A stretch of DNA of 64,000 bases from an uncultured Pseudomonadota bacterium (GTDB lineage: Bacteria > Pseudomonadota > Gammaproteobacteria > Steroidobacterales > Woeseiaceae): NCBI GenBank assembly GCA_913055625.1, contig CAJXJW010000004.1, forward strand, positions 62,001 to 126,000, in the 5' to 3' direction. The position numbers were made by a program, and so were the translations under genes. Under the pieces are notes generated by a model. It saw only the letters and a program-made list of their open reading frames with translations, made no database searches and was not told the origin of the DNA. Below are positions 9,480-19,320 of the stretch, in pieces (positions within the stretch are counted from its first letter, which is position 1; each line of letters opens with the position of its first letter).

Positions 9480-9566
9480 GCCCGGGTGGCGGAATTGGTA
9501 GACGCTGCGGACTTAAAATCCGCTGTCCGCAAGGACGTGCGGGTTCGAGTCCCGCCCTGGGCACCA
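9480..9566 (+). tRNA. leuZ: tRNA-Leu (TAA), integration target of the island
   Basis: An 87-base type II tRNA with long variable arm and encoded CCA. The anticodon stem GCGGA/TCCGC holds loop CTTAAAA with anticodon TAA at 9514-9516. The acceptor GCCCGGG pairs with CCTGGGC, leaving one G-T wobble. The 3' half from the anticodon onward forms attL of the integrated element; the displaced original 3' half lies at 19263-19320 and would pair perfectly with this 5' end. The current 3' half was therefore probably supplied by the element and restores a working tRNA. Confidence 0.97.
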
Positions 9567-9567
9567 A
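9510..9567 (+). repeat. attL
   Basis: The block begins with 16 bases (GACTTAAAATCCGCTG) identical to 19263-19278, followed by 15 divergent variable-arm bases, then GGGTTCGAGTCCC and GGGCACCAA, which are also shared with attR at the same spacing. The identical 16 bases span the anticodon loop and are the likely crossover region. Confidence 0.9.
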
Positions 9568-9624
9568 AGAATTCAAATAGTTACGATCGCGGCATAGCCT
9601 GCCATTCCCAGCGTCGTTGACAAT

Positions 9625-9642
9625 TGGTCCACGAATGGTCCA
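9625..9642 (+). repeat. TGGTCCA direct repeats, possible integrase arm sites
   Basis: TGGTCCA occurs at 9625-9631 and 9636-9642, one helical turn apart, just inside attL. A third copy (19115-19121) lies inside attR. Placement at both ends suggests arm-type sites for the integrase; this is inference from position and repetition. Confidence 0.45.
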
Positions 9643-9677
9643 ATCGCTGAGCACCCATCAGCAACGGGCAGGTGAAT

Positions 9678-10754
9678 ATGGCAACGATAACCGAGCGGGC
9701 AGGGGTCAGCGGGGCGAAAGTCTGGCGCGTCAGGATTCGGCGATCCGGATACCCCGACCAAACCGCTACCTTCAAATCGAAATCGGACGCGAAGCGCTGG
9801 GCCACGACGACCGAGGCGGCCATTCTCGAGGGCCGGCATTTCGTGTCGCAGAAATCGAAGAAGCACTCGCTTGCCGACGCGATCGACCGTTACCTCGACG
9901 ACCAGCTGCTTGCACTCTCGGAGAGCGAGCAGCGGAATCGGAAGCGCCACCTCGAGTTCTGGCGGAAGCACCTAGGCAAGATGACGTTGGCGCAGCTCTG
10001 TAATGACGCCGAGCCGATTCGGGAGACCATGGCTTTGCTGCGGCGCTCGAAGACGAAACGGGGCGGTTTGCGGTCCGCAGGCACGACGAACCGCTACTTC
10101 GCGTCGCTCTCGAAGCTGTTTACTTCGGCGATGCGCTGGGGCTGGGCCAGCTCGAATCCGATGCGCCTGGTCGACAAGCTTCCGGAACCGGCGGGCCGGG
10201 ATCGCTTCCTCTCCGACGATGAGCTGCACCGGTTGCTCGAAGCCACGGCGGCCAGCACGGATCCCTACCTCGATATCGTGGTGAAGCTGGCGCTAACCAC
10301 CGGCGGCCGATATGCCGAAATCATGGGGCTGACTTGGAGCGATGTCTCGCTGGACCGGCAGACCGTGACGTTCCGCAAAACCAAGAACCGGGATGTCCGT
10401 ACCGTGCCGCTCGTTGAGCCGGCTCTGGGCGCCGTGACAGCGTTGAGCGAGAGGAAGCGCGCCGACACCGATCTGCTCTTTGCGTGGTCCCGGCCCGATC
10501 TCCCCAAGAACATTCAGGCCGGGTGGAAGAGGGCACTCAAGGAGGCCGGGATCACTGATTTCAGGTTCCACGACCTCAGGCATAGCTGCGCAAGCTTTCT
10601 TGCGATGAACGGCGCGCGTCCCAGCGAACTGGCCGCGGTACTGGGGCACAAGACGCTGTCGATGGTGAAAAGGTATTCGCACGTCAGCGAGGCGCACACG
10701 GCCGATCTGGTGCGTTCCATGGCCGAGCGCAGGTTCGGGGGAGGAAAGTCGTGA
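9678..10754 (+). CDS. int: tyrosine-family site-specific integrase
   Basis: The 358-residue product carries the full catalytic set: Arg211 (TTGGRYAEIMGL), His298/Arg301 (FHDLRHS), His324 (LGHKTL) and the nucleophile Tyr333 (VKRYSHVS). An N-terminal core-binding region precedes it (about 60-165). It would join the element's attP to the tRNA-Leu anticodon region and, with an excisionase, reverse that. ATG 9678 is preferred to GTG 9672; a weak CAGG precedes it. The gene reads away from the tRNA, and its stop overlaps the next start by GTGA. Confidence 0.95.
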   Translation: MATITERAGVSGAKVWRVRIRRSGYPDQTATFKSKSDAKRWATTTEAAILEGRHFVSQKSKKHSLADAIDRYLDDQLLALSESEQRNRKRHLEFWRKHLGKMTLAQLCNDAEPIRETMALLRRSKTKRGGLRSAGTTNRYFASLSKLFTSAMRWGWASSNPMRLVDKLPEPAGRDRFLSDDELHRLLEATAASTDPYLDIVVKLALTTGGRYAEIMGLTWSDVSLDRQTVTFRKTKNRDVRTVPLVEPALGAVTALSERKRADTDLLFAWSRPDLPKNIQAGWKRALKEAGITDFRFHDLRHSCASFLAMNGARPSELAAVLGHKTLSMVKRYSHVSEAHTADLVRSMAERRFGGGKS

Positions 10755-11281
10755 GCGTGACGCGCACGCCGGATCCTTCGGGTCTGCTAGATGACAAGGT
10801 GGAGATTGACCCGTCTGACCCGACCCCTGAGGATCGGGTGGCTTTTGTCGAGATGTTCGAATACAGCCTTCCCTGGTTTCGCGTAGAGCGGCTTCGCCGG
10901 CACGAAAGCCTTTCGGAAAAAGCTGACGCACTATTAGAGTTGCTCAAAGCTAGTGGCAACCTCAAGGTTCCGGATTCGGTGCTGGGTCAACCGCTAAAGA
11001 TTTGCAGTTCCGACTACAAGTTGCCCGATGCGCTGGAACTTCAGCTGCTGAAAGTCGAGCACTATGCTCGCTATCTTGATACGTGCGACGCGATGATCGA
11101 AAAGAAGAAGCGGGATGCTGCGAAGCGAAAGCACAGCAATGCCGAGATCGATGCCGCACTCCATCAACACAATGGCAATCGAACCAAGGCTGGGAAGTCG
11201 TTGAAGCCTACCATGACGCCACGTGGCATCAACATGCGAATCAGGGATGAAGACGAACTCGCGCACTGGCGGAAGTCGTAA
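10751..11281 (+). CDS. Fis-type helix-turn-helix protein, unknown N-terminal part
   Basis: The 176-residue product ends in a segment (IDAALHQHNGNRTKAGKSL) that looks like the Fis/NtrC helix-turn-helix, whose consensus has A-L-x-x-H-x-G-N-R-T-x-A-A. The degenerate continuation (KPTMTPRGINMRI) matches the recognition helix region. The first 120 residues are acidic and not recognised. The start GTG overlaps the integrase stop, so expression is coupled. Small Fis-like regulators next to an integrase are known from phage satellites, which fits the rest of this element. Confidence 0.7.
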   Translation: MSVTRTPDPSGLLDDKVEIDPSDPTPEDRVAFVEMFEYSLPWFRVERLRRHESLSEKADALLELLKASGNLKVPDSVLGQPLKICSSDYKLPDALELQLLKVEHYARYLDTCDAMIEKKKRDAAKRKHSNAEIDAALHQHNGNRTKAGKSLKPTMTPRGINMRIRDEDELAHWRKS

Positions 11282-11344
11282 GTCTTCCCGGGGAAAACTT
11301 ACGACTTCCTATTACATCGCTGCTGCCGCCTCGGTAAGTATCTA

Positions 11345-11366
11345 GCCTCCGAAAAAGGAGGCAGCC
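11345..11366 (+). promoter_or_regulatory. hairpin sequestering the ribosome binding site of the 11367 gene
   Basis: GCCTCC (11345-11350) and GGAGGC (11357-11362) form a perfect six-pair stem with loop GAAAAA. The Shine-Dalgarno GGAGG (11357-11361) is inside the 3' arm, five bases before the ATG at 11367. In RNA this would hide the ribosome binding site unless opened by a protein, RNA or upstream translation. Confidence 0.6.
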
Positions 11367-11654
11367 ATGAACACCCCCCAAAACCGTCCAGCACCGGCTT
11401 CGCGCAGGTACGTTCCACTTTCGAGGTGGCCCAATTTTCATCCGTGGCCGAGTGTCCTTGGACTGAGGAGCATGAAGCATCGGGCCGGTGCCGTGGTTGC
11501 CCAGGCCGACCGCGGCGCGGTTGTTGACGAGGAAGAGCTGCGGCGAGCTCGTGACCTACTGGCCTGCTTCGTTGAGACGTACGGCCGCGTTTTGATCGAC
11601 GAACCAGCCTTTCTCGCCCTAATCGCCGCCGGCCGACTTGGTACGCCCGCGTGA
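11367..11654 (+). CDS. excisionase/AlpA-like small DNA-binding protein (putative)
   Basis: The 95-residue product has YVPLSRWPNFHPWPSVLGLR, a tryptophan-rich segment followed by a basic stretch, and ends near RVLIDEPAFLALIAAG. This layout (a W-P-x-x-H-P-W-P turn, a G-x-L-R motif, then R-V-L-I-D-E-x-x-F) recurs in small integrative-element proteins placed near integrases, which I read as winged-helix excisionase/AlpA relatives. It may direct excision or switch the element on. Its ribosome site is buried in a hairpin. The stop overlaps the next start by GTGA. Confidence 0.6.
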   Translation: MNTPQNRPAPASRRYVPLSRWPNFHPWPSVLGLRSMKHRAGAVVAQADRGAVVDEEELRRARDLLACFVETYGRVLIDEPAFLALIAAGRLGTPA

Positions 11655-11839
11655 CTGCGGCCTCCAGATCGTGTGCCCGGTGTACGCGGAAATTTGTTCC
11701 TGCCCGCGATTTTCATCGCTTGTGCCGCTCGTGCCGCCACACGTTACGGCAGCTGGCGGCGTGGGGTCGCCTGCAGGAGCGGTCGGCGCTGCAGCGCAAG
11801 CGCGGCAATCCGGCCGCCGACAGGGCGTTTTGCTCGTGA
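11651..11839 (+). CDS. small zinc-ribbon-like protein
   Basis: The 62-residue product contains C-A-R-C near residue 8 and C-R-S-C near residue 25 (CARCTRKFVPARDFHRLCRSC is the full span), a C-x2-C ... C-x2-C metal site. The rest is basic. Such short zinc-finger proteins are frequent in satellites and integrative elements. It starts with GTG on the previous stop and its own stop overlaps the next GTG, so three genes are chained. Confidence 0.7.
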   Translation: MTAASRSCARCTRKFVPARDFHRLCRSCRHTLRQLAAWGRLQERSALQRKRGNPAADRAFCS

Positions 11840-12150
11840 CCCCGCAGCCTCCTGGCGCCCGTGAGTGGCTCGACGCCCCCGTCGCCCCCATGGTCGTTCT
11901 CATGGGCAGCGGCGCAGAAGAGCAAGCAAATCTGTCCGAAATTCCGGTGCTCTGGCTTCTGCCTGGTCGCGACCCACGAATTTATCGTTGGCCCGCAGCC
12001 GCGTACCCGGCGATCGTCCTCGAGGTTGGCTGTGCCGATCGAGCAGATTCGATTTGGCTGGCGAATCAGCTATTGCGCGACGGAGCCGCTCACGTCGTTG
12101 TACGCAAATTCTCGAAGCCGGCCGATGGATGTTTGGATGCCGGCTTTTAG
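11836..12150 (+). CDS. hypothetical protein, 104 residues
   Basis: It begins with GTG at 11836, overlapping the zinc-ribbon stop. The body alternates hydrophobic strands (APMVVLMGSG, EIPVLWLLPG, YPAIVLEVGC) with a final helix and strand (ANQLLRDGAAHVVVRKF). It looks like a small alpha/beta domain. I do not recognise a named family. The overlap chain and the orderly strand pattern support it as a real gene; the much longer open frame upstream (from 11638) is an out-of-frame shadow of the previous genes. Confidence 0.6.
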   Translation: MTPQPPGAREWLDAPVAPMVVLMGSGAEEQANLSEIPVLWLLPGRDPRIYRWPAAAYPAIVLEVGCADRADSIWLANQLLRDGAAHVVVRKFSKPADGCLDAGF

Positions 12151-12207
12151 TCGTTTTCAACGGTTCTCTCGCGGCTTTGTAGGCGCGAGCCTGCCCGGCA
12201 GACAGTC

Positions 12208-12900
12208 ATGAGCATCCGGGAGCGCAGATTCCTCCGGGTCGCCGATTGGAACCAGTTTCAATACGGCGACCTTCGCAAAAAACCTAAAGCACCTTGGGCT
12301 TGGTGCAGGCTGCCAAGGATACTTCTCGCTAATCCAGATTTTCAGGCTCTCACGATGCCGCAACGAGGAGCATTCCTTTGTTTCCTGATGCTCGCTTCCG
12401 AAACCGGCAACTTGATTCCCGCCGACCCGAAGTACATTCGAAGTCGCGCGCAAGTCGATCCGAGATTGACTCAAAGTCTCACCAAAGTCGGGCTTATTGA
12501 GGAAATAGCGTTGGACTCGGATTCGCAAGAAGTCAAAGAGTTACGTCGAATTTTCTCCGGAGGTCGTCCGCCCCCAGAGGAAGAGGGGAGAACAGAATCA
12601 GAAAAGAGGGTATCCCCGCCTGAAAGACTGTGTCGACTTACTCCTGCCAGACCGCAAACTCAGTCGGAAGCAAGGCACGTCACCGACGTGCTCTGCGATA
12701 CCACCGTTCCGCCTGGAGTTCGTCGGATCGGCAGGCAACCTGAATTCGATCTGTTGCTGAAGGCATGTCTCGAGGCCCGCGTAACCGGCTCTGATTGGAA
12801 TGGCCAGACGGATGTGGTCCGTCAGCAATTTGGCTTCGTCCTGTCTGACCGCCAGCACCAGCAGCTTGAGCGGCAACTGAACGACAGAGCGCACCGATGA
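12208..12900 (+). CDS. replication-initiator-like winged-helix protein (putative)
   Basis: The 230-residue product starts with a region like the N-terminus of phage replication proteins of the DnaT/lambda-O type: VADWNQFQYGDLRKK, then PWAWCRLPRILLANPDFQAL, then GNLIPADPKYIRSR with a helix-turn-helix-like VDPRLTQSLTKVGLIEE. The middle is charged and low in structure. The C-terminal 60 residues form a second, smaller domain. I infer a role in replicating the excised element; no helicase or primase motif is seen. The alternative is a transcription factor. Confidence 0.55.
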   Translation: MSIRERRFLRVADWNQFQYGDLRKKPKAPWAWCRLPRILLANPDFQALTMPQRGAFLCFLMLASETGNLIPADPKYIRSRAQVDPRLTQSLTKVGLIEEIALDSDSQEVKELRRIFSGGRPPPEEEGRTESEKRVSPPERLCRLTPARPQTQSEARHVTDVLCDTTVPPGVRRIGRQPEFDLLLKACLEARVTGSDWNGQTDVVRQQFGFVLSDRQHQQLERQLNDRAHR

Positions 12901-13029
12901 CTCGCTTTGCGCCGACAGTCCGCGGGCAACGGGTCCCTCTCCCCGGGTGCCCCTACCGCGGGCGCGCTAGCGCGTGGATTTCGAGACTTTTTAGGACCAC
13001 ATAGGGTTTCGTTTCGCTTTGGTTTTTCG

Positions 13030-13353
13030 GTGACCAATCAAGGGGATAACGACCGTGACGCCGCGACGGGCCGCAGAGTCCGGGCTGCGCTCGACCGTGG
13101 CCGCGAACTGGCCAACGCCGCGAAGCGCCGGCGCCACGAGGCGCTGCTCGAATTGGTTCGCGTCGAGGCCGACGCTGACAAGGCCCGTGGCTATCGTGTC
13201 CATGGGCGCGCGCAGCGAATCGCGACAACGCTGGCGGCATACGCGAGCAGGTCGACGATTTATCGACTCCACGCCGAAATTTCTCGAACCGTCCTGTGTG
13301 AGACGCGCGGCGTGATTAACTCGACGCGGGTACGCAATGGAGGACGAAAATGA
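13030..13353 (+). CDS. small basic helix-turn-helix-like protein
   Basis: The 107-residue product is rich in Arg and Ala and has a putative helix-turn-helix near AAYASRSTIYRLHAEI. GTG 13030 is the chosen start because the frame further upstream lacks normal composition; no good ribosome binding site is visible, so the start is uncertain (TTG 12907 is possible). The stop overlaps the capsid ATG by ATGA. It may regulate capsid expression; that is inference from position. Confidence 0.5.
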   Translation: MTNQGDNDRDAATGRRVRAALDRGRELANAAKRRRHEALLELVRVEADADKARGYRVHGRAQRIATTLAAYASRSTIYRLHAEISRTVLCETRGVINSTRVRNGGRK

Positions 13354-14498
13354 GTAGATCGGCAGTTCTCGAGCGAGACCGCGCTGCGACGATTATTCAA
13401 CTCGGCGCGCAGTTCGGGCTTGGCCAGCTTGCACTTGAGGCAGTCCGCCGCGGAACCACGATCACGGAGTTCCAAGCGCAGGCCGCGCAGCGAGCGGTCG
13501 CCGACCGCTCTGGCTTCAGCTTCGCCGGCGCGCTTCGGGCAATGTTCGAAGACCCTCGTACCCCCAAGCTCGGCGGCATCGAGGGCGACCTTTTGAGGGA
13601 ATACGCCGGTGGGGAAGGCTTCGATCCGCTCACGTGGCAGATTCCATGGTCTGCGTTGGTGACCCGAGATCTCAATGTCGGCGCCGGCTCTGCGGGCGGC
13701 TTCCTGGTCGGGGATCAACGCATCACGGCACGCGACTTGCTGCGCCCGCATTCCGTCGTCGTTTCTGGCGGGATCGAGATCGTCGATAACGTGTCCGAAG
13801 GTGCGGCCGTTCCGGTCGGCAGTACAACCACGTCGATCGCTTGGCTGGCGTCCGAGACTGATTCAGCTTCTCCGTCGACGCCAGCAATGTTGCAGATAGC
13901 AGCCGCTCCAAAAATTGCGGTGGGGCTACTGCAGTTCTCGCGCCGCCTGCTGCAGCAAGCTTCGATTGAATCCTTCGTCCGTCGCGAGCTAATCAAGACA
14001 GCGGCGACAGCTGTCGATGCCGCGGCGCTTGGCGGCTCGGGCACCTCGGGCGAGCCGCTCGGCATCGTCAATGTCGCCGGAGCAAACGCTGTTGACGGGA
14101 GCAGCTTCTCGCACGCCAAGGCGGTTGCGATGAAGGGCGCATGCGCCAACGCAAACGCCCCAGACTCAGAAATCACCTTCGCGGCGCCGCCCGCCGTTCG
14201 CGAGTTGCTCGAGCTACGCGAACTGACATCCGGCTCCGGTCAGTTCGTCTGGAAGAATGACCGAGTCGCCGATCGGACCGCCACAGTTTCGACATCGATG
14301 CCGGCCGCGACTTTGACTGCAGGTGCATGGTCGACAGCGACTTTGCTCCTGTATGGGCGTAGAGGAGTCCAGCTCGACTTCAACAGATTCGATTCGGCGT
14401 TGTTCCGAGCCGGAATCCTCCAGTGCCGCGTCCTGGTGGCCTGCGACGTGCTATTTCCGCAACCCGCCGCGTTCAGCGTTGCGAGTAGCATTTCATGA
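13350..14498 (+). CDS. HK97-family phage major capsid protein
   Basis: The 382-residue product has landmarks of HK97-fold capsids: a helical N-terminal delta-like region (about 1-60, IIQLGAQFGLGQLALEAV), SRRLLQQASIESFVRREL at 198-214, GGSGTSGEPLGIV at 228-240, and a C-terminal P-domain end (GRRGVQLDFNRFDSALFRAG). The N-terminal part resembles the linker that joins a fused prohead protease to the capsid in some phages, but no protease is encoded in front of it. Assembly therefore probably needs a helper phage, or the protein is used to redirect one. Confidence 0.9.
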   Translation: MSRSAVLERDRAATIIQLGAQFGLGQLALEAVRRGTTITEFQAQAAQRAVADRSGFSFAGALRAMFEDPRTPKLGGIEGDLLREYAGGEGFDPLTWQIPWSALVTRDLNVGAGSAGGFLVGDQRITARDLLRPHSVVVSGGIEIVDNVSEGAAVPVGSTTTSIAWLASETDSASPSTPAMLQIAAAPKIAVGLLQFSRRLLQQASIESFVRRELIKTAATAVDAAALGGSGTSGEPLGIVNVAGANAVDGSSFSHAKAVAMKGACANANAPDSEITFAAPPAVRELLELRELTSGSGQFVWKNDRVADRTATVSTSMPAATLTAGAWSTATLLLYGRRGVQLDFNRFDSALFRAGILQCRVLVACDVLFPQPAAFSVASSIS

Positions 14499-14683
14499 CC
14501 GTCGTCGACGATCTGCGGGCGCATCTGAGTCGGAAGCCCACGCCGACGCGGCGCATTCGTCGCACTGGCCGCGCCTTCCGACACCAAGGCCGCATTATCG
14601 AAGTGGGCGAGATTGTAACGGTCGACGAGGATGTCGCTCGCTCATTGGTTCTAATTCAGGCTAAGGCTGAATTTTGCGATTAA
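14495..14683 (+). CDS. small basic protein coupled to the capsid gene
   Basis: The 62-residue product overlaps the capsid stop by ATGA. It reads as a compact beta-rich protein (RTGRAFRHQGRIIEVGEIV followed by DEDVARSLVLIQAKAEF), a pattern of small proteins seen next to capsid genes where a G-x-x-V-x-x-G-D/E-x-V segment precedes an alanine-rich tail. A head-decoration or connector role is possible but unproven. Confidence 0.6.
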   Translation: MTVVDDLRAHLSRKPTPTRRIRRTGRAFRHQGRIIEVGEIVTVDEDVARSLVLIQAKAEFCD

Positions 14684-14744
14684 CCCGGCCGCGCGATGCT
14701 ATGCATCCGCGGCGCCCCGCACTGGATTGCCTCGGGGGTTGTGC

Positions 14745-14790
14745 AAAAAAGGCGCCAGCGCTCGCGGCCGGTCAACTCCAGTGCTGGCGC
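14745..14790 (-). terminator. Rho-independent terminator for reverse-strand transcription
   Basis: GCGCCAGC (14752-14759) and GCTGGCGC (14783-14790) form a perfect eight-pair stem. On the reverse strand it is followed by a six-T run (14745-14750). It therefore stops a transcript coming from the right, where a reverse-strand reading frame ends at 14800. Confidence 0.75.
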
Positions 14791-14799
14791 GGCGGGCCG

Positions 14800-14904
14800 C
14801 TACCGCTGCGTGACGGCGGGCGTTCTCTCGAACGTGGCCGGCGCCGATGGTGCAACATCCATCGTCGTCGGCCGAATCTTTATATGGTCATTCTGTATCG
14901 TCAC
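14800..14904 (-). CDS. possible 34-residue protein on the reverse strand
   Basis: A GTG at 14904 opens a short frame (VTIQNDHIKIRPTTMDVAPS and on) with GAAGG about eight bases upstream, ending ten bases before the reverse-strand terminator. All other genes of the element read the other way. It may be a real short protein or part of a non-coding RNA between the capsid module and the cargo. Confidence is low because the frame is too short to judge by composition. Confidence 0.3.
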   Translation of the reverse strand: MTIQNDHIKIRPTTMDVAPSAPATFERTPAVTQR

Positions 14905-14965
14905 GTGATAGCCTTCGACCAGCGTCGAGCACCGTGTTGCTGCGGACAATGGAATTGGGGACTCC

Positions 14966-15787
14966 GTGATAGCCAATCGACAACTGGGTACTCCCAAACT
15001 GCAGCCAATCTTGAAATGGGCGGGTGGCAAGAGGTGGTTCGTCACCAACCATTCAGAACACTTGAACATTGATTTTGACCGGTATATCGAGCCATTCGCC
15101 GGCAGCTGCGCTGTGTATTTTCACTGCCAACCAGACAAAGCAATCTTGGCAGATGCCAATCCAGAGCTAATTAATGTGTACAACACGCTTCGCTCCGATT
15201 GGAAAAAAGTCTACGCGAAGCTGGTCGAGCACAATAGACGCCATTCAAAACAGTACTACTATCATATAAGGGCAAGCCGGCCGAGAACGAAACACACTCA
15301 GGCCGCTCGCTTTATTTACTTGAATCGCACTTGCTGGAATGGGCTTTATCGAGTCAATAGAAACGGGCAATTCAACGTTCCAATAGGCACCAAGAGCTCA
15401 GCTATACTTGATACGGACGACTTCGAATCCGTTCATCATTTGCTTCAAAGTGCAGATATCCGCTGTGCGGATTTTCGTGAAACGATTTTCGAAGCTCGAC
15501 GCGGCGATCTACTCTTCGTGGATCCTCCGTATACGGTTCGTCACAACCTAAACGGGTTCGTAAAGTACAACGAAACTCTGTTTTCTTGGGCGGACCAGGT
15601 CGACCTTTGTGCAGCGGTCAAGGCTGCCAAGTCTCGTGGAGCCACCCTCTTGATGACCAATGCGAATCACCCATCGATCAAAGAGCTATATGGCGACGAA
15701 TTCGAGATTGATGTCGTCTCCCGGTACAGCTCTATTTCCTCAAGTAACCAGTCGCGTTCGAGTTTTGAAGAGCTCATTATCCGATAG
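14966..15787 (+). CDS. Dam-family DNA adenine N6-methyltransferase
   Basis: The 273-residue product has the D12-class order of motifs: motif X/I PILKWAGGKRW (14-24), IEPFAGSCAVYF (41-52), the CWNGLYRVNRNGQFNVP segment (123-139) and catalytic motif IV VDPPY (185-189) followed by FVKYNETLFSW. It is close in length to E. coli Dam (278), so it may methylate adenine in GATC, though specificity cannot be read safely. The start is GTG 14966 behind TTGGGGA. It opens the AT-rich cargo. No restriction endonuclease is seen nearby, so it is a solitary methylase or part of the unknown cargo system. Confidence 0.9.
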   Translation: MIANRQLGTPKLQPILKWAGGKRWFVTNHSEHLNIDFDRYIEPFAGSCAVYFHCQPDKAILADANPELINVYNTLRSDWKKVYAKLVEHNRRHSKQYYYHIRASRPRTKHTQAARFIYLNRTCWNGLYRVNRNGQFNVPIGTKSSAILDTDDFESVHHLLQSADIRCADFRETIFEARRGDLLFVDPPYTVRHNLNGFVKYNETLFSWADQVDLCAAVKAAKSRGATLLMTNANHPSIKELYGDEFEIDVVSRYSSISSSNQSRSSFEELIIR

Positions 15788-15841
15788 AAGTTGTCCTGCC
15801 CGTCTCTCGGCCAAGCAGTCAGCGACAGGCTGGTATCAGTA

Positions 15842-16387
15842 ATGGGTATTAGTCTCGCCCTCACCGGATTGGTCGCGATTGTGTTTCTGATAATGCTTCT
15901 GCATCAGGGGGCAAGCAGAACTCACTGGCTTCATGCAGCCGGACAGATATTGTTCATCTGGGTATTAAGCAACATTCCACTAGGCTTCTTGCTTATAGAT
16001 TCAAGCCTAGACCCTTCGAGCAAATCCATATTCGATTCGATCCGACAGCAAGTCCGAATGGGCGAAGCCGTCGTGTACTTGGCGGCAATTTTGGCGCCAG
16101 TCCTCTTCACTTTGCTGATGAACTACAGTGTTTCTGCCAAAGTGTACGTAATGACGAATATTGTAGGCGTCATTTTGTGTGTTGGATGTGCATCGTATAT
16201 TTACGCACTCCATATTAGACAGGCTCCTGCTGATACAGATACGCTTTTCATCATTACCGGTACGCTGTATGCGCTTTGCGTTCTAATTTGGTACTTCTCA
16301 GTTGTTTACGAATTGATCGTTACGAATCCGGACCCTGGAAAATCCTCTAAAGATAGAGCGACTGAGATTGAGGACAGCCTCCCGTGA
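15842..16387 (+). CDS. multi-span membrane protein of the cargo module
   Basis: The 181-residue product has five likely membrane spans (about 2-20, 28-50, 74-96, 103-124, 132-155) and a short charged cytoplasmic tail (NPDPGKSSKDRATEIEDSLP). No family is recognised. Its start is uncertain: ATG 15842 gives a clean first span, but a TTG at 15791, three bases after the Dam stop, is in frame. The stop overlaps the DGQHR gene start by GTGA, so the two proteins are made in step. Counted GC in this gene is as low as 38% in a 60-base line. It could be the membrane effector of a two- or three-gene defence unit. Confidence 0.7.
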   Translation: MGISLALTGLVAIVFLIMLLHQGASRTHWLHAAGQILFIWVLSNIPLGFLLIDSSLDPSSKSIFDSIRQQVRMGEAVVYLAAILAPVLFTLLMNYSVSAKVYVMTNIVGVILCVGCASYIYALHIRQAPADTDTLFIITGTLYALCVLIWYFSVVYELIVTNPDPGKSSKDRATEIEDSLP

Positions 16388-17499
16388 CCAAGTCAATTGA
16401 GATCCCATGCATAAAGATCGATCAGCCAATCGGGCAGTTCTACGTTGGCGTCATTAGTCATTCTGATTTGCTCAAGATTTGTTTCGTAGATCAGCGAGAA
16501 TTGAATTCTGAACTTGATGATTTCATTGGTATTCAAAGGCAGCTATCTCGCTCACGCGTTCGGAAAATTGAGGAATACGTTAGAAACGTTGATGCGACGT
16601 TTCCAACTTCAATAATTATTTCGATCCGAGACGCGAATTGTTCGTGGGACGGCAGACGGCGCACTCTGAAAATTCATGAGTCGAAGGCCACCAAGTTCGA
16701 TGACATCGCCAAGATTCTAGATGGGCAGCATCGCGTCGAAGGCTTGAAGGTCTTGGATCCGAGCGATACATTCGAACTCAATGTAACAATCTTTGTTGAA
16801 GTGGATGTTGCAACTCAGGCGAACATATTCGCTACTGTGAATTTGGCTCAAACAAAGGTGAACAGAAGTCTTGTTTACGACTTGTTTTCCTATGAGCGAG
16901 TTCGGAGTCCGCAGAAGTCCTGTCACGAGATAGTTGTCGCGCTTAATAACTCCAAGTCAAGCCCATTCCATGATCGAATTAAGAGGCTGGGAGTTGCGAC
17001 GCCAGGAGTCGAAAACGAAACGCTCACACAGGCGGCATTTGTCGAGTCGCTAATGAATTTCGTATCGAAAAAGCCGACAGAGGACAGGAACAGTTTCTTG
17101 CGCAAACTTCGACTTCAGGGCCCAACTCTGGAGGAATTGCAGGCGTTGCCTTTCCGAGGTTTGTGGCTAGCGGCCAAGGAAGACGACATAGCAAGAATAC
17201 TTTTTAATTACTTCAGTGCTGTAGTTCAGAAGTGGCCGAACTCATGGCAAAACGTCAAGAGAAAGGGCAACGTGCTACCGAAGACCAACGGGTTCAAGGC
17301 GCTAATGAGATTCTTGAAGCCCGTATACTTGGATATTGTTGGTGATAATTTTGGAGAGATTCCGAGCACGATAAAGTTCGCAAAGTATCTGTCGCCGGTC
17401 ACCTTGCGAGACAAGGACTTTAATGTTGAGACTTTCCCGCCTGGAACGAGCGGTGAATCTATTTTGTACAAAGAGTTGATGAGGTCGGTGTTTAAGTAG
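16384..17499 (+). CDS. DGQHR-domain protein (DndB-like family)
   Basis: The 371-residue product has the hallmark DGQHR at 113-117 (KILDGQHRVEGL), preceded by a ParB-like fold region (VDQREL, RQLSRSRVRKIEEY) and followed by the expected IFATVNLAQTKVNRSLVYDL segment at about 148-167. DGQHR proteins include DndB, a regulator of phosphorothioate DNA modification, but none of the other dnd genes is here. It is coupled to the membrane protein through GTGA and follows a Dam methylase. I infer a DNA- or nucleotide-sensing partner; enzymatic activity is unknown. Confidence 0.85.
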   Translation: MTKSIEIPCIKIDQPIGQFYVGVISHSDLLKICFVDQRELNSELDDFIGIQRQLSRSRVRKIEEYVRNVDATFPTSIIISIRDANCSWDGRRRTLKIHESKATKFDDIAKILDGQHRVEGLKVLDPSDTFELNVTIFVEVDVATQANIFATVNLAQTKVNRSLVYDLFSYERVRSPQKSCHEIVVALNNSKSSPFHDRIKRLGVATPGVENETLTQAAFVESLMNFVSKKPTEDRNSFLRKLRLQGPTLEELQALPFRGLWLAAKEDDIARILFNYFSAVVQKWPNSWQNVKRKGNVLPKTNGFKALMRFLKPVYLDIVGDNFGEIPSTIKFAKYLSPVTLRDKDFNVETFPPGTSGESILYKELMRSVFK

Positions 17500-17790
17500 G
17501 GGCTTTCGGCCAATCTGTGGCACCCCTAGTTCGAATCTTGATACTTGGAATGCTAAGGCGTAATTGAAGCTTCATCGGCTTTTAGGCCCTCCAAGTGATT
17601 GCGCCGAATCTCTATTTGTCGGCCGACTTGGACTGCGCGATTTCTTTTCGAGGCTAGACTTAGTTGCGACGCGCTTTCTAAGCCTATGGGTGGGAGTCTG
17701 TTTGGGCTCCGGAACTTGCGCCAAGCATCGTGCCTTGCGTCAGTGGGCCTTCCATACACACCGCCAAGATACTTGAGGAAGTGTGCGTCG
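17500..17790. other. cargo intergenic stretch without a convincing gene
   Basis: These 291 bases separate the DGQHR gene from the next cargo gene. Forward frames lack a good start. A 68-codon reverse frame (17553-17759) exists, but it has no ribosome binding site or recognisable domain. The stretch may hold a promoter for the 17791 gene or the remains of a deleted gene. Confidence 0.4.
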
Positions 17791-18495
17791 ATGCTTGAGC
17801 GAAGTGTCCGTTTTGTTGTCGCAAATTCGAGCGGTCAGCGGGCGGCTACTTGGAAGTGCTGGACGTCGCCTAACTTCCCCGATGTCTATGTTGCGTGTCG
17901 CGAAGTCGGCAGCGCGGTCAAGGCTAGCTTGCATAGGTCAGGCGATTGGCGACTTGCCTACATCGAAGGCTTCTATAGCCGCGCGTTCTCAGCGCCGCGG
18001 CAGGCAGAGCACAGTCGCCTCATCCAACGTTGGCCACGACCTTCGGAGTTGGCGCCTGGTGTCACTCTGGCGCTCCAAATCTACACACCATTGGCCGCTG
18101 TGGCTTCTCCAATCGAGCGCTTCGGCAAGCGAATAGTCCATATCCCGGCGCCGCAACCGGCCGCGTCGATCGAGACCAGTCTATTCATACTGACTGGCGA
18201 CGCTGTCAGTTGCCGGTGCCCCGGTGCGACTTCTATGGGCACGCGGTTGGTTGGGTCCATGCGCCTAGTAAACGGGGACAAGGTAGCGGTGGTCTATCGA
18301 GAATGTGCGTTCCCCGAAGTGCTGCGCGGGCCGGTCAAAGGTCATTTTCTTGAGGGCGTGGATCGCAAATCGATCAAATCCGAGTACCTTCGGATGCTTG
18401 TATTCGGCGACAAGCTCGATGGCACGCGCTGCTTATTCGAAATGATCGTCCGACCAAGCGACGGCAGAGGTTTGACCGATCGGCTCGTGCGATAA
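17791..18495 (+). CDS. hypothetical cargo protein, 234 residues
   Basis: ATG 17791 opens a protein beginning MLERSVRFVVANSSGQRAAT. It contains DVYVACREVGSAVKASLHRS followed by GDWRLAYIEGFYSR, then a mixed strand pattern and a hydrophilic C-terminus. I recall the D-V-Y-x-x-x-R-x-x-G ... K-x-S-L-H-x-S-G-x-W-R-x-A pattern from uncharacterised proteins of integrative elements, but no function is known. It lies 11 bases before the next gene and is probably co-transcribed with it. Confidence 0.65.
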   Translation: MLERSVRFVVANSSGQRAATWKCWTSPNFPDVYVACREVGSAVKASLHRSGDWRLAYIEGFYSRAFSAPRQAEHSRLIQRWPRPSELAPGVTLALQIYTPLAAVASPIERFGKRIVHIPAPQPAASIETSLFILTGDAVSCRCPGATSMGTRLVGSMRLVNGDKVAVVYRECAFPEVLRGPVKGHFLEGVDRKSIKSEYLRMLVFGDKLDGTRCLFEMIVRPSDGRGLTDRLVR

Positions 18496-18506
18496 TCGGG
18501 CCAGAG

Positions 18507-19094
18507 ATGGCCTACGATCCCCTCAAATATCTGCCTCTGCTCGACGACTATACGTCGAGATCTGCTGACCGACTGCGTCGGAATGCCAGCCTGGTCGCGT
18601 TTACGGTCATTGTGATCGACCTATTTGACGTCTCTCTGGCGGGTATCTCGATCGCGGGGGTGCCTATTATTGCCGGCAAGGAATGTCTGGCGGGCTCAGT
18701 CGCCGCCGTTGTCCTCGTCTTTTGGTCTGTGGCGTTCGCCGTCCGCTATTGCGCCGATGTCGGACGTCGCCGGGAGAACATCCGGCTCTTCAAGTCCATA
18801 ATTGACCCAATAAAGAGGCAGATTCAGAAGGTCGAGGAAAGAATCAGCGGTGACCCGCATCGAGCTATTCCGGCTTCGCATCCGCAAAACAAGGCAGTTG
18901 TGAAGGCTTACGAATCGCAGGTGAGGCGCACCAAAGTGGCCAGAGGCCTGCTTTTTGCGTCCCGGTTGTTCGAATGGCTGCCAGCGGCGATTGTTATCGT
19001 CTGGGCCGCGTACATTCTCGCTGGGTATCTGTTCGGAGAGGCCTCGACCTATTGCTCTTGCCGCGGCTCTGAAGCCCTCGTCGGCTGCGTCTAA
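18507..19094 (+). CDS. cargo membrane protein with three spans
   Basis: The 195-residue product has two membrane spans near the N-terminus (about 26-48 and 62-82), a charged central cytoplasmic region with a likely coiled helix (RRRENIRLFKSIIDPIKRQI) and a third span near 154-176. It ends CSCRGSEALVGCV. No family is recognised. With the preceding gene it forms a second two-gene unit at the right end of the element, a place where defence or fitness genes are often carried. Confidence 0.65.
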   Translation: MAYDPLKYLPLLDDYTSRSADRLRRNASLVAFTVIVIDLFDVSLAGISIAGVPIIAGKECLAGSVAAVVLVFWSVAFAVRYCADVGRRRENIRLFKSIIDPIKRQIQKVEERISGDPHRAIPASHPQNKAVVKAYESQVRRTKVARGLLFASRLFEWLPAAIVIVWAAYILAGYLFGEASTYCSCRGSEALVGCV

Positions 19095-19262
19095 TCGGGT
19101 CCGCACCGCAGATTTGGTCCAATTTTGGGCCACGCATCGCCAGAAACGCCCCGAAACAGGCTGAATTGACCAGCATCGGAAAATCGGAGTTTTCCCCGCA
19201 GAGTCGTGGCCTTACGGCACAATTCAGCACCGGTGAGAACCACTGAAAACCTGCGCAACCAC

Positions 19263-19320
19263 GACTTAAAATCCGCTGGGAGTAATCCCTTGTGGGTTCG
19301 AGTCCCACCCCGGGCACCAA
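19263..19320 (+). repeat. attR, displaced 3' end of tRNA-Leu
   Basis: Sixteen bases (19263-19278) equal the attL anticodon region; a different variable arm of equal length (stem GGGA/TCCC) follows, then a T arm GTGGG/CCCAC and acceptor CCCGGGC with CCA. This 3' half would pair perfectly with the tRNA-Leu 5' end GCCCGGG, so it is most likely the tRNA's original 3' half before insertion. TGGTCCA at 19115-19121 lies just inside it. Confidence 0.9.

Follow-up and report, generated by a model that had tools for sequence, protein, structure and literature searches.

What is a solitary DNA adenine methylase doing in a genomic island beside a small membrane protein and a DGQHR-domain protein? The question arose from a 64,000-nucleotide stretch of DNA (the window; contig CAJXJW010000004.1, positions 62,001 to 126,000) from an uncultured gammaproteobacterium of the Woeseiaceae, in which three intact genes follow one another in the same direction on the plus strand. 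The first (14966-15787, 273 amino acids) encodes a D12-class (Dam/DpnM-like) N6-adenine DNA methylase, the second (15842-16387, 181 amino acids with the start used in database entry P0001) a membrane protein, and the third (16384-17499, 371 amino acids, GTG start) a DGQHR-domain protein. An initial annotation had described this row, pointed to a four-base GTGA overlap between the membrane-gene stop and the DGQHR start, and proposed that the three genes form a module. The row is supported by intact open reading frames (ORFs) and family matches, the overlap is present in the sequence, and comparison of homologous loci indicates that the methylase-membrane-DGQHR cassette is a real, widespread module in which the last two genes are fixed.

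Conservation of the gene order

Loci were collected with a 24-row DGQHR alignment, which yielded the best 80 of 98 confirmed bacterial-genome loci and 22 viral-contig loci, making 102 that were fetched (given below with the prefix L). They were chosen through conserved peptides of this DGQHR clade and are not a sample of all DGQHR proteins; a few are near-copies of one another (99 distinct among 106 DGQHR tree rows). With the window included, 96 of the 103 loci had at least 700 bases upstream of the DGQHR gene and could be tested. In 93 of the 96, a membrane ORF (150-320 amino acids, at least two predicted spans) abuts the DGQHR start, whereas such a neighbor was found at only 9 of 524 other genes (at least 200 amino acids) of the same loci, which served as a control. 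The three exceptions look like gene-calling artefacts: the DGQHR ORF of L029 is shortened, but upstream of it the membrane gene can be detected, L075 has an over-long ORF call with four spans, and L080 an ORF of 117 amino acids with three spans. The membrane and DGQHR genes overlap by 1-4 bases in 56 of 96 loci, counting cut loci with an upstream ORF and leaving out L029, L075, and L080. The same gene order was found across many phyla, which is more than chance would provide.

A family profile of the membrane protein gave one strong copy in each of the 46 genomes searched, plus one marginal match; coordinates were compared for four of these copies, each of which lay at the DGQHR locus. The proposal of a module is thus borne out by both counts. 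Homologues of the membrane protein co-occur with DGQHR proteins, and the pattern named beforehand as contrary to the proposal, homologues mostly without DGQHR neighbors, was not seen in these samples, all of which were drawn through DGQHR or Dam.

An independent sample of 398 genomes of the window's phylum contained a DGQHR protein (E <= 1e-40) in three: the window's own genome, one with a Dam-membrane-DGQHR row (L105), and one in which a membrane gene is accompanied by an upstream ATPase resembling DptH by eye (L106). Among plasmids, 38 records had a DGQHR match, and all eight examined (L107-L114) have a spans-bearing ORF ahead of the DGQHR gene, that of L110 being recognized by eye. The family profile clearly matched L105, L107, L108, and L109 and weakly matched L111; it gave no match to L106, L112, L113, and L114, and the membrane proteins of those four may therefore be from another family. 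Phage records contained two distant DGQHR matches (25 %).

The three proteins

The methylase is a sound member of its class. It matched PF02086 (E 1.6e-47; 162.8 bits, cut-off 22) and TIGR00571 dam (231.6 bits, cut-off 114.85), aligned with the DpnM structure 2dpm (E 9.7e-45), and retains the motifs KWAGGK, DPPY, and NGLYRVN..GQFNVPIGTK; model score, DPPY, and the KWxGGK region together place it in the D12-class/Dam family. The recognition segment resembles that of DpnM, whereas the residues after the segment differ (GTK vs GRYK). It is the sole D12 match in its genome. Its PADLOC match to PD-Lambda-5_B was weak (34 bits).

The DGQHR protein matched PF14072 (E 4.6e-14) and, well above the cut-off of 58.85, the domain model TIGR03187 (197 bits); the DGQHR pentapeptide at residues 113-117 is invariant in all 24 alignment rows. 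Against TIGR04172, the DNA phosphorothioation-associated DGQHR protein 1, it scored 196.4 bits over model positions 1-379 of 381, below the 450-bit cut-off, as did the dnd-linked copy of L071 (201.1 bits). The scores for DndB (TIGR03233, 25.3 bits, cut-off 328) and DpdB (NF041060, 70.9 bits, cut-off 300) were also too low for membership, and these two were its only PADLOC matches at E <= 0.1. Residues 14-160 are predicted to adopt a ParB/sulfiredoxin fold. PF14072 was the sole Pfam match at E <= 0.1, so that the C-terminal DUF1524 (HNH) nuclease domain that marks GmrSD and BrxU was not found.

The membrane protein has five hydrophobic spans in a simple hydropathy scan of the longer, 198-amino-acid ORF, which would begin at a possible alternative TTG start at 15791. 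Its AlphaFold2 model (predicted local distance difference test 87.3) is helical throughout. Single-linkage BLAST joined the membrane proteins of 77 loci into one family that takes in the window, dnd-, MT-A70-, and Dam-linked members, with only 9-22 % identity to the window protein. Its members have in common a second-helix proline and the motif G-E-x3-Y-x5-A-P, which in the window protein are P46 and G74-E75-x3-Y79-x5-A85-P86. The window protein had no Pfam match above cut-off and no NCBIfam, PADLOC, or PHROG match; those of L071 and L053 had no NCBIfam match, and no Pfam or PADLOC model fitted the 94 members of the family, for which PADLOC returned three weak member matches to two other models. 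Identity as an MFS transporter was rejected (MFS_2, 16.7 bits, cut-off 27), and the structural relatives were varied helical bundles, none of them convincing. A protein search with the window sequence found three relatives including itself, and one with the 94-row alignment found 29 among 7999 candidates scored; a viral scan with membrane alignment A2 gave no match.

Enzymes associated with the pair

The initial annotation had connected DGQHR proteins with DNA-modification systems, and for the pair this connection held: 93 of the 102 loci contain a DNA-modification enzyme within the fetched DNA, namely a D12 methylase in 73, a dnd cluster in 10, an MT-A70 methylase in 8, and another enzyme in 2. 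The D12 gene is directly upstream in most loci, lies on the opposite strand in 13 tree rows, and is more than 1 kb from the DGQHR gene, with genes between or on the other side, in eight (L020, L052, L069, L073, L074, L076, L079, and L081, the last a fragment at a contig end). The two remaining enzymes are an N6_N4 methylase (L046) and a DpnA-like methylase (L080) near an apparent DpnII endonuclease fragment, the near-copy L079 being confirmed.

Endonucleases accompany some copies. Five of the eight MT-A70 loci have a BglII-like endonuclease, as judged by phmmer matches to that of L031, whose own Pfam match was confirmed; such an enzyme lies beside the pair in L031, L047, L050, L097, L098, L108, and L109. 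DpnII endonucleases were confirmed in L074, L076, and L079, and the BglII type in L108. L071, read gene by gene, has DptH, the membrane gene, and the DGQHR gene, followed on the other strand by DndE, DndD, DndC, and DndB, and thus holds both DndB and the DGQHR protein of this clade; the remaining nine dnd loci were assigned by phmmer matches to its DndC and DndD. Among the plasmids, L107 has Dam, L108 a BglII/BstYI endonuclease and Dam, and L109 MT-A70 and a BglII/BstYI endonuclease, while dnd genes are annotated in L113 and L114 and were seen by eye in L110. Viral-contig copies sit beside phage tail genes and repressors, a context that we take to be P2-like.

Some loci have further features. 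In L020 (3045-5321, 758 amino acids) and L069 (3078-5408, 776 amino acids), a large protein with an internal DndB domain lies between Dam and the pair, that of L069 also having a weak HEPN_Swt1 match. In L073 (2051-5342), a HerA-like ATPase (DUF87) and a 453-amino-acid protein occupy the same place, possibly as an extra nuclease arm. The Firmicutes plasmids L111 (3012-4888; Lactococcus) and L112 (2933-4885; Lactiplantibacillus) have, ahead of the DGQHR gene, a protein whose N-terminal part is soluble and whose C-terminal part has two spans, and their annotated stretch contains neither a methylase nor another marking enzyme.

Nine loci had no enzyme in the fetched DNA (L003, L007, L009, L011, L012, L026, L028, L034, and L048); six of these are cut within 700 bases upstream, and L007, L009, and L048 are uncut loci where the pair stands without a local methylase. 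The genomes of all but L048 were searched. A D12 match was present in those of L003, L028, and L034 (four of nine in a search also covering L015), with scores against a module Dam of 368.8 bits for L003 and 39 and 49 bits for L028 and L034. Of these only the L003 match is close, and its gene opens another contig, next to a membrane gene of the family (L121); L003 is therefore probably a standard Dam-membrane-DGQHR row that the assembly has split. MT-A70 matches occurred in four of the eight genomes: those of L007, L009, and L011 scored 289-300 bits against the enzyme of L109, and that of L003 98.5 bits. The first three had no BglII-like neighbor in the DNA fetched, one flank of L011 ending at a contig end. 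As background, 17 of 200 genomes of the window's phylum have an MT-A70 match and 72 of 200 a D12 match, L009 and L011 being from another phylum. The genomes of L012 and L026 have neither. In L115, L116, and L117, MT-A70 has no BglII-like neighbor and the genomes hold the pair elsewhere, possibly a mark provided in trans.

Exchange of partners

In a DGQHR tree built by a quick method, the dnd-linked rows form one side of a branch with support 100. The MT-A70 label changes 8 times among 9 rows, and 121 of 500 shuffles were as low, so its clustering is no better than chance. An example of exchange is given by L060, with Dam, and L109, with MT-A70 and a BglII/BstYI endonuclease: the DGQHR proteins are 82.8 % and the membrane proteins 65.9 % identical, and the methylases are unlike. 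Across 56 Dam-type loci, pairwise distances correlated at 0.82 for membrane and DGQHR proteins (0 of 2000 permutations as high) vs 0.57 for Dam and DGQHR; the partial correlations were 0.73 and 0.19, although such distance correlations only partly remove shared ancestry. With the partner swaps, this stronger co-variation suggests that the membrane-DGQHR pair is the core and that the marking enzyme can be replaced. The initial annotation did not foresee that the pair would also turn up within dnd clusters and next to endonucleases of the DpnII and BglII types, which likewise suggests that Dam is exchangeable.

A search with the window Dam alone found 13 viral loci, seven of which carry the membrane-DGQHR pair (four of these on contigs already in the set). 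Five others have, beside a Dam of the same subfamily, a different DGQHR protein of ~500 amino acids and a ~445-amino-acid protein without a known Pfam family (L125, 2127-4992; L126, 1-2863; L128, 5795-8648 on the minus strand; L133, 2109-4907; L134, 2192-5007). The thirteenth, L122, contains by eye pieces like this second architecture, broken by a transposon. Because both architectures stand beside the same Dam subfamily, that subfamily seems linked to DGQHR proteins in general, their companions being of more than one kind.

The island in the window

The three genes are AT-rich cargo of an island (9510-19320) bounded by a direct repeat of 58 nucleotides (81 % identity). Its left end (9510-9567, plus strand) is the 3' part of a tRNA-Leu(taa) gene spanning 9480-9566, and its right end (19263-19320, plus strand) is a second copy of the tRNA-Leu end. 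Plus-strand genes for a tyrosine-recombinase integrase (9672-10754; PF00589, E 1.1e-32; phrog_1) and, outside the module, an HK97-type capsid protein (13350-14498; PF05065, E 1.8e-13; phrog_617) were identified, and no terminase, portal, or tail family was found by Pfam or PHROG among the ORFs scanned. The island is a capsid-carrying, satellite-like element in tRNA-Leu. Near its right end, 18507-19094 encodes a second small protein (195 amino acids) with hydrophobic stretches and no Pfam family.

The initial annotation was right that the trio is AT-richer than the capsid gene, but its figures (38-45 % G+C against 72 %) were not reproduced: we measured 48.5 % for Dam, 46.5 % for the membrane gene, 46.2 % for the DGQHR gene, and 62.8 % for the capsid gene, within a window of 65.5 %. 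Its statement that dnd and restriction genes are absent holds for the island ORFs scanned (10 with Pfam, 5 with PADLOC, 5 with NCBIfam, and 10 with PHROG), the scan having been confined to the island. No restriction endonuclease family was found among those ORFs, some of which match no family at all, and the cognate endonuclease adjoining the methylase that defines a type II restriction-modification system was not seen. GATC is neither rare nor frequent (51 observed vs 55.3 expected in the island; 404 vs 415.3 in the window).

Models of action

Our preferred reading, for which we put the chances at even, is that the cassette is a restriction-modification-like defence module with a membrane effector in place of the restriction nuclease. 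On strong sequence grounds, the D12 methylase would mark the cell's own DNA with N6-methyladenine, probably at GATC or another GAT-containing site. The DGQHR protein, with its predicted NTP-binding ParB/sulfiredoxin fold, would survey DNA and switch state on meeting unmarked DNA; it would then work via the small membrane protein, its constant partner, a contact suggested by their pairing and co-variation. Once engaged, the membrane protein might bring the infection to a halt at the membrane; the likeliest way would be to open the membrane, which would amount to abortive infection. Dam, MT-A70, DpnII- or BglII-type systems, and Dnd would be exchangeable as markers.

A module could hardly target the methylation that it places on the DNA of its own cell, and the mark is thus most likely one of self, as in restriction-modification and Dnd; a modification-dependent (type IV-like) attack on methylated DNA was rejected because the module itself makes that methylation. 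As no nuclease family was found in the DGQHR protein and its membrane partner is constant, a modification-gated membrane response would be the simplest design. Most likely, the module would defend bacteria against unmarked phage DNA. A defensive role fits where it is found: next to phage tail genes and repressors, on plasmids and 22 viral contigs, and within dnd and restriction-modification loci.

Dam, DpnII-, and BglII/BstYI-type enzymes share a GATC core. A single GATC reader for all members was nevertheless rejected, as the ten linked dnd clusters have DndC loops of several kinds: TRS in four, TRN in two, and TKS, TQQ, TQS, and NQT in one each. By the assignments in the consulted part of PMC12193691 (TRS to GAAC/GTTC; NQT or TQN to GATC), GATC would be the target in one of the ten, and five have no assignment. 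More tentatively, and with the balance somewhat against it, the pair might provide a general modular immunity in which a constant ParB-fold surveyor and a membrane effector turn any resident mark, whether m6A by Dam or MT-A70 or sulfur by Dnd, into a nuclease-free membrane "restriction", even where the methylase lies elsewhere in the genome.

The main rival, which we consider unlikely, reverses the order of events: as in Kiwa, the membrane protein would sense phage injection and the DGQHR protein would be the DNA-binding effector that blocks phage DNA, with methylation only keeping it off the chromosome and no cell suicide. A fixed pair with a varying marking enzyme suits this order, and Kiwa is similar in outline, being a membrane tetramer with a non-cleaving DNA-binding protein in the part of PMC12904381 consulted. 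On the other side, the PADLOC matches of the DGQHR protein were confined to DpdB and DndB, the window membrane protein matched nothing there, and the 94 membrane proteins gave only the weak matches to other models; the sequences cannot separate sensor from effector.

A regulatory role was judged improbable. Here, the DGQHR protein would be a DndB-like regulator tuning the modification genes, the membrane protein would be unrelated, and Dam would regulate the mobile element. DndB is reported as a regulator of the dnd operon in the consulted parts of PMC4507180 and PMC12704722, and L071 has both DndB and the clade DGQHR protein. Against it, this reading does not explain why a membrane gene abuts the DGQHR gene so constantly, why the two co-vary so strongly, or why the pair is found in L007, L009, and L048 with no methylase nearby. 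That the trio is selfish cargo, with Dam protecting its island or prophage against restriction by the host and with the pair serving superinfection exclusion or addiction but no wider defence, suits its carriers (the island here, viral contigs, and plasmids) but is very improbable given that the pair also occurs in dnd clusters and beside DpnII-/BglII-type endonucleases, where marking-based defence already exists.

Relation to described systems

Dnd clusters with TIGR04172 share with the module the order DptH, membrane gene, DGQHR in L071, and the window protein aligns to that model over nearly its full length; they differ in that it falls below the cut-off, in that no dnd family occurs among the island ORFs scanned, and in using sulfur rather than adenine methylation. 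DpnII- and BglII/BstYI-type systems share the methylase classes, and their endonucleases lie beside some copies of the pair, whereas none was found in the window island. Kiwa (KwaA and KwaB) likewise consists of two genes, for a membrane protein and a predicted DNA-binding protein; neither the window membrane and DGQHR proteins nor the membrane family had a match to them in PADLOC, which presumably includes Kiwa models, and Kiwa is not known to be linked to any enzyme that marks DNA. SspE, BrxU, and GmrSD, ParB/Srx-fold readers of DNA modification, resemble the window DGQHR protein in the predicted N-terminal fold and share a DGQxR motif (PMC4619093, as far as consulted), but the window protein has no DUF1524/HNH domain that could be found and is paired with a membrane protein. 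PD-lambda-5 is also a prophage-borne system with a methylase, called a compact "RM+Abi" in the consulted part of PMC9519451; the methylase match to it is weak, however, and the membrane and DGQHR proteins had no PADLOC match to it.

A DGQHR protein linked to dnd genes was noticed in 2011 (PMC3226654, consulted in part) and has a family name. No description of the membrane-DGQHR pair or the Dam-linked trio was found in the texts consulted, which covered few subscription papers, and the module is apparently undescribed so far. Many orphan Dam methylases of prophages and islands are without an assigned role. If the preferred reading is true, one subfamily of them, that with the NGLYRVN..FNVPIGTK segment, would confer immunity within a defence system that strikes through a membrane protein. 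The DGQHR protein 1 of dnd clusters may then play the same part, and modification-based defence would become linked to membrane-acting abortive infection.
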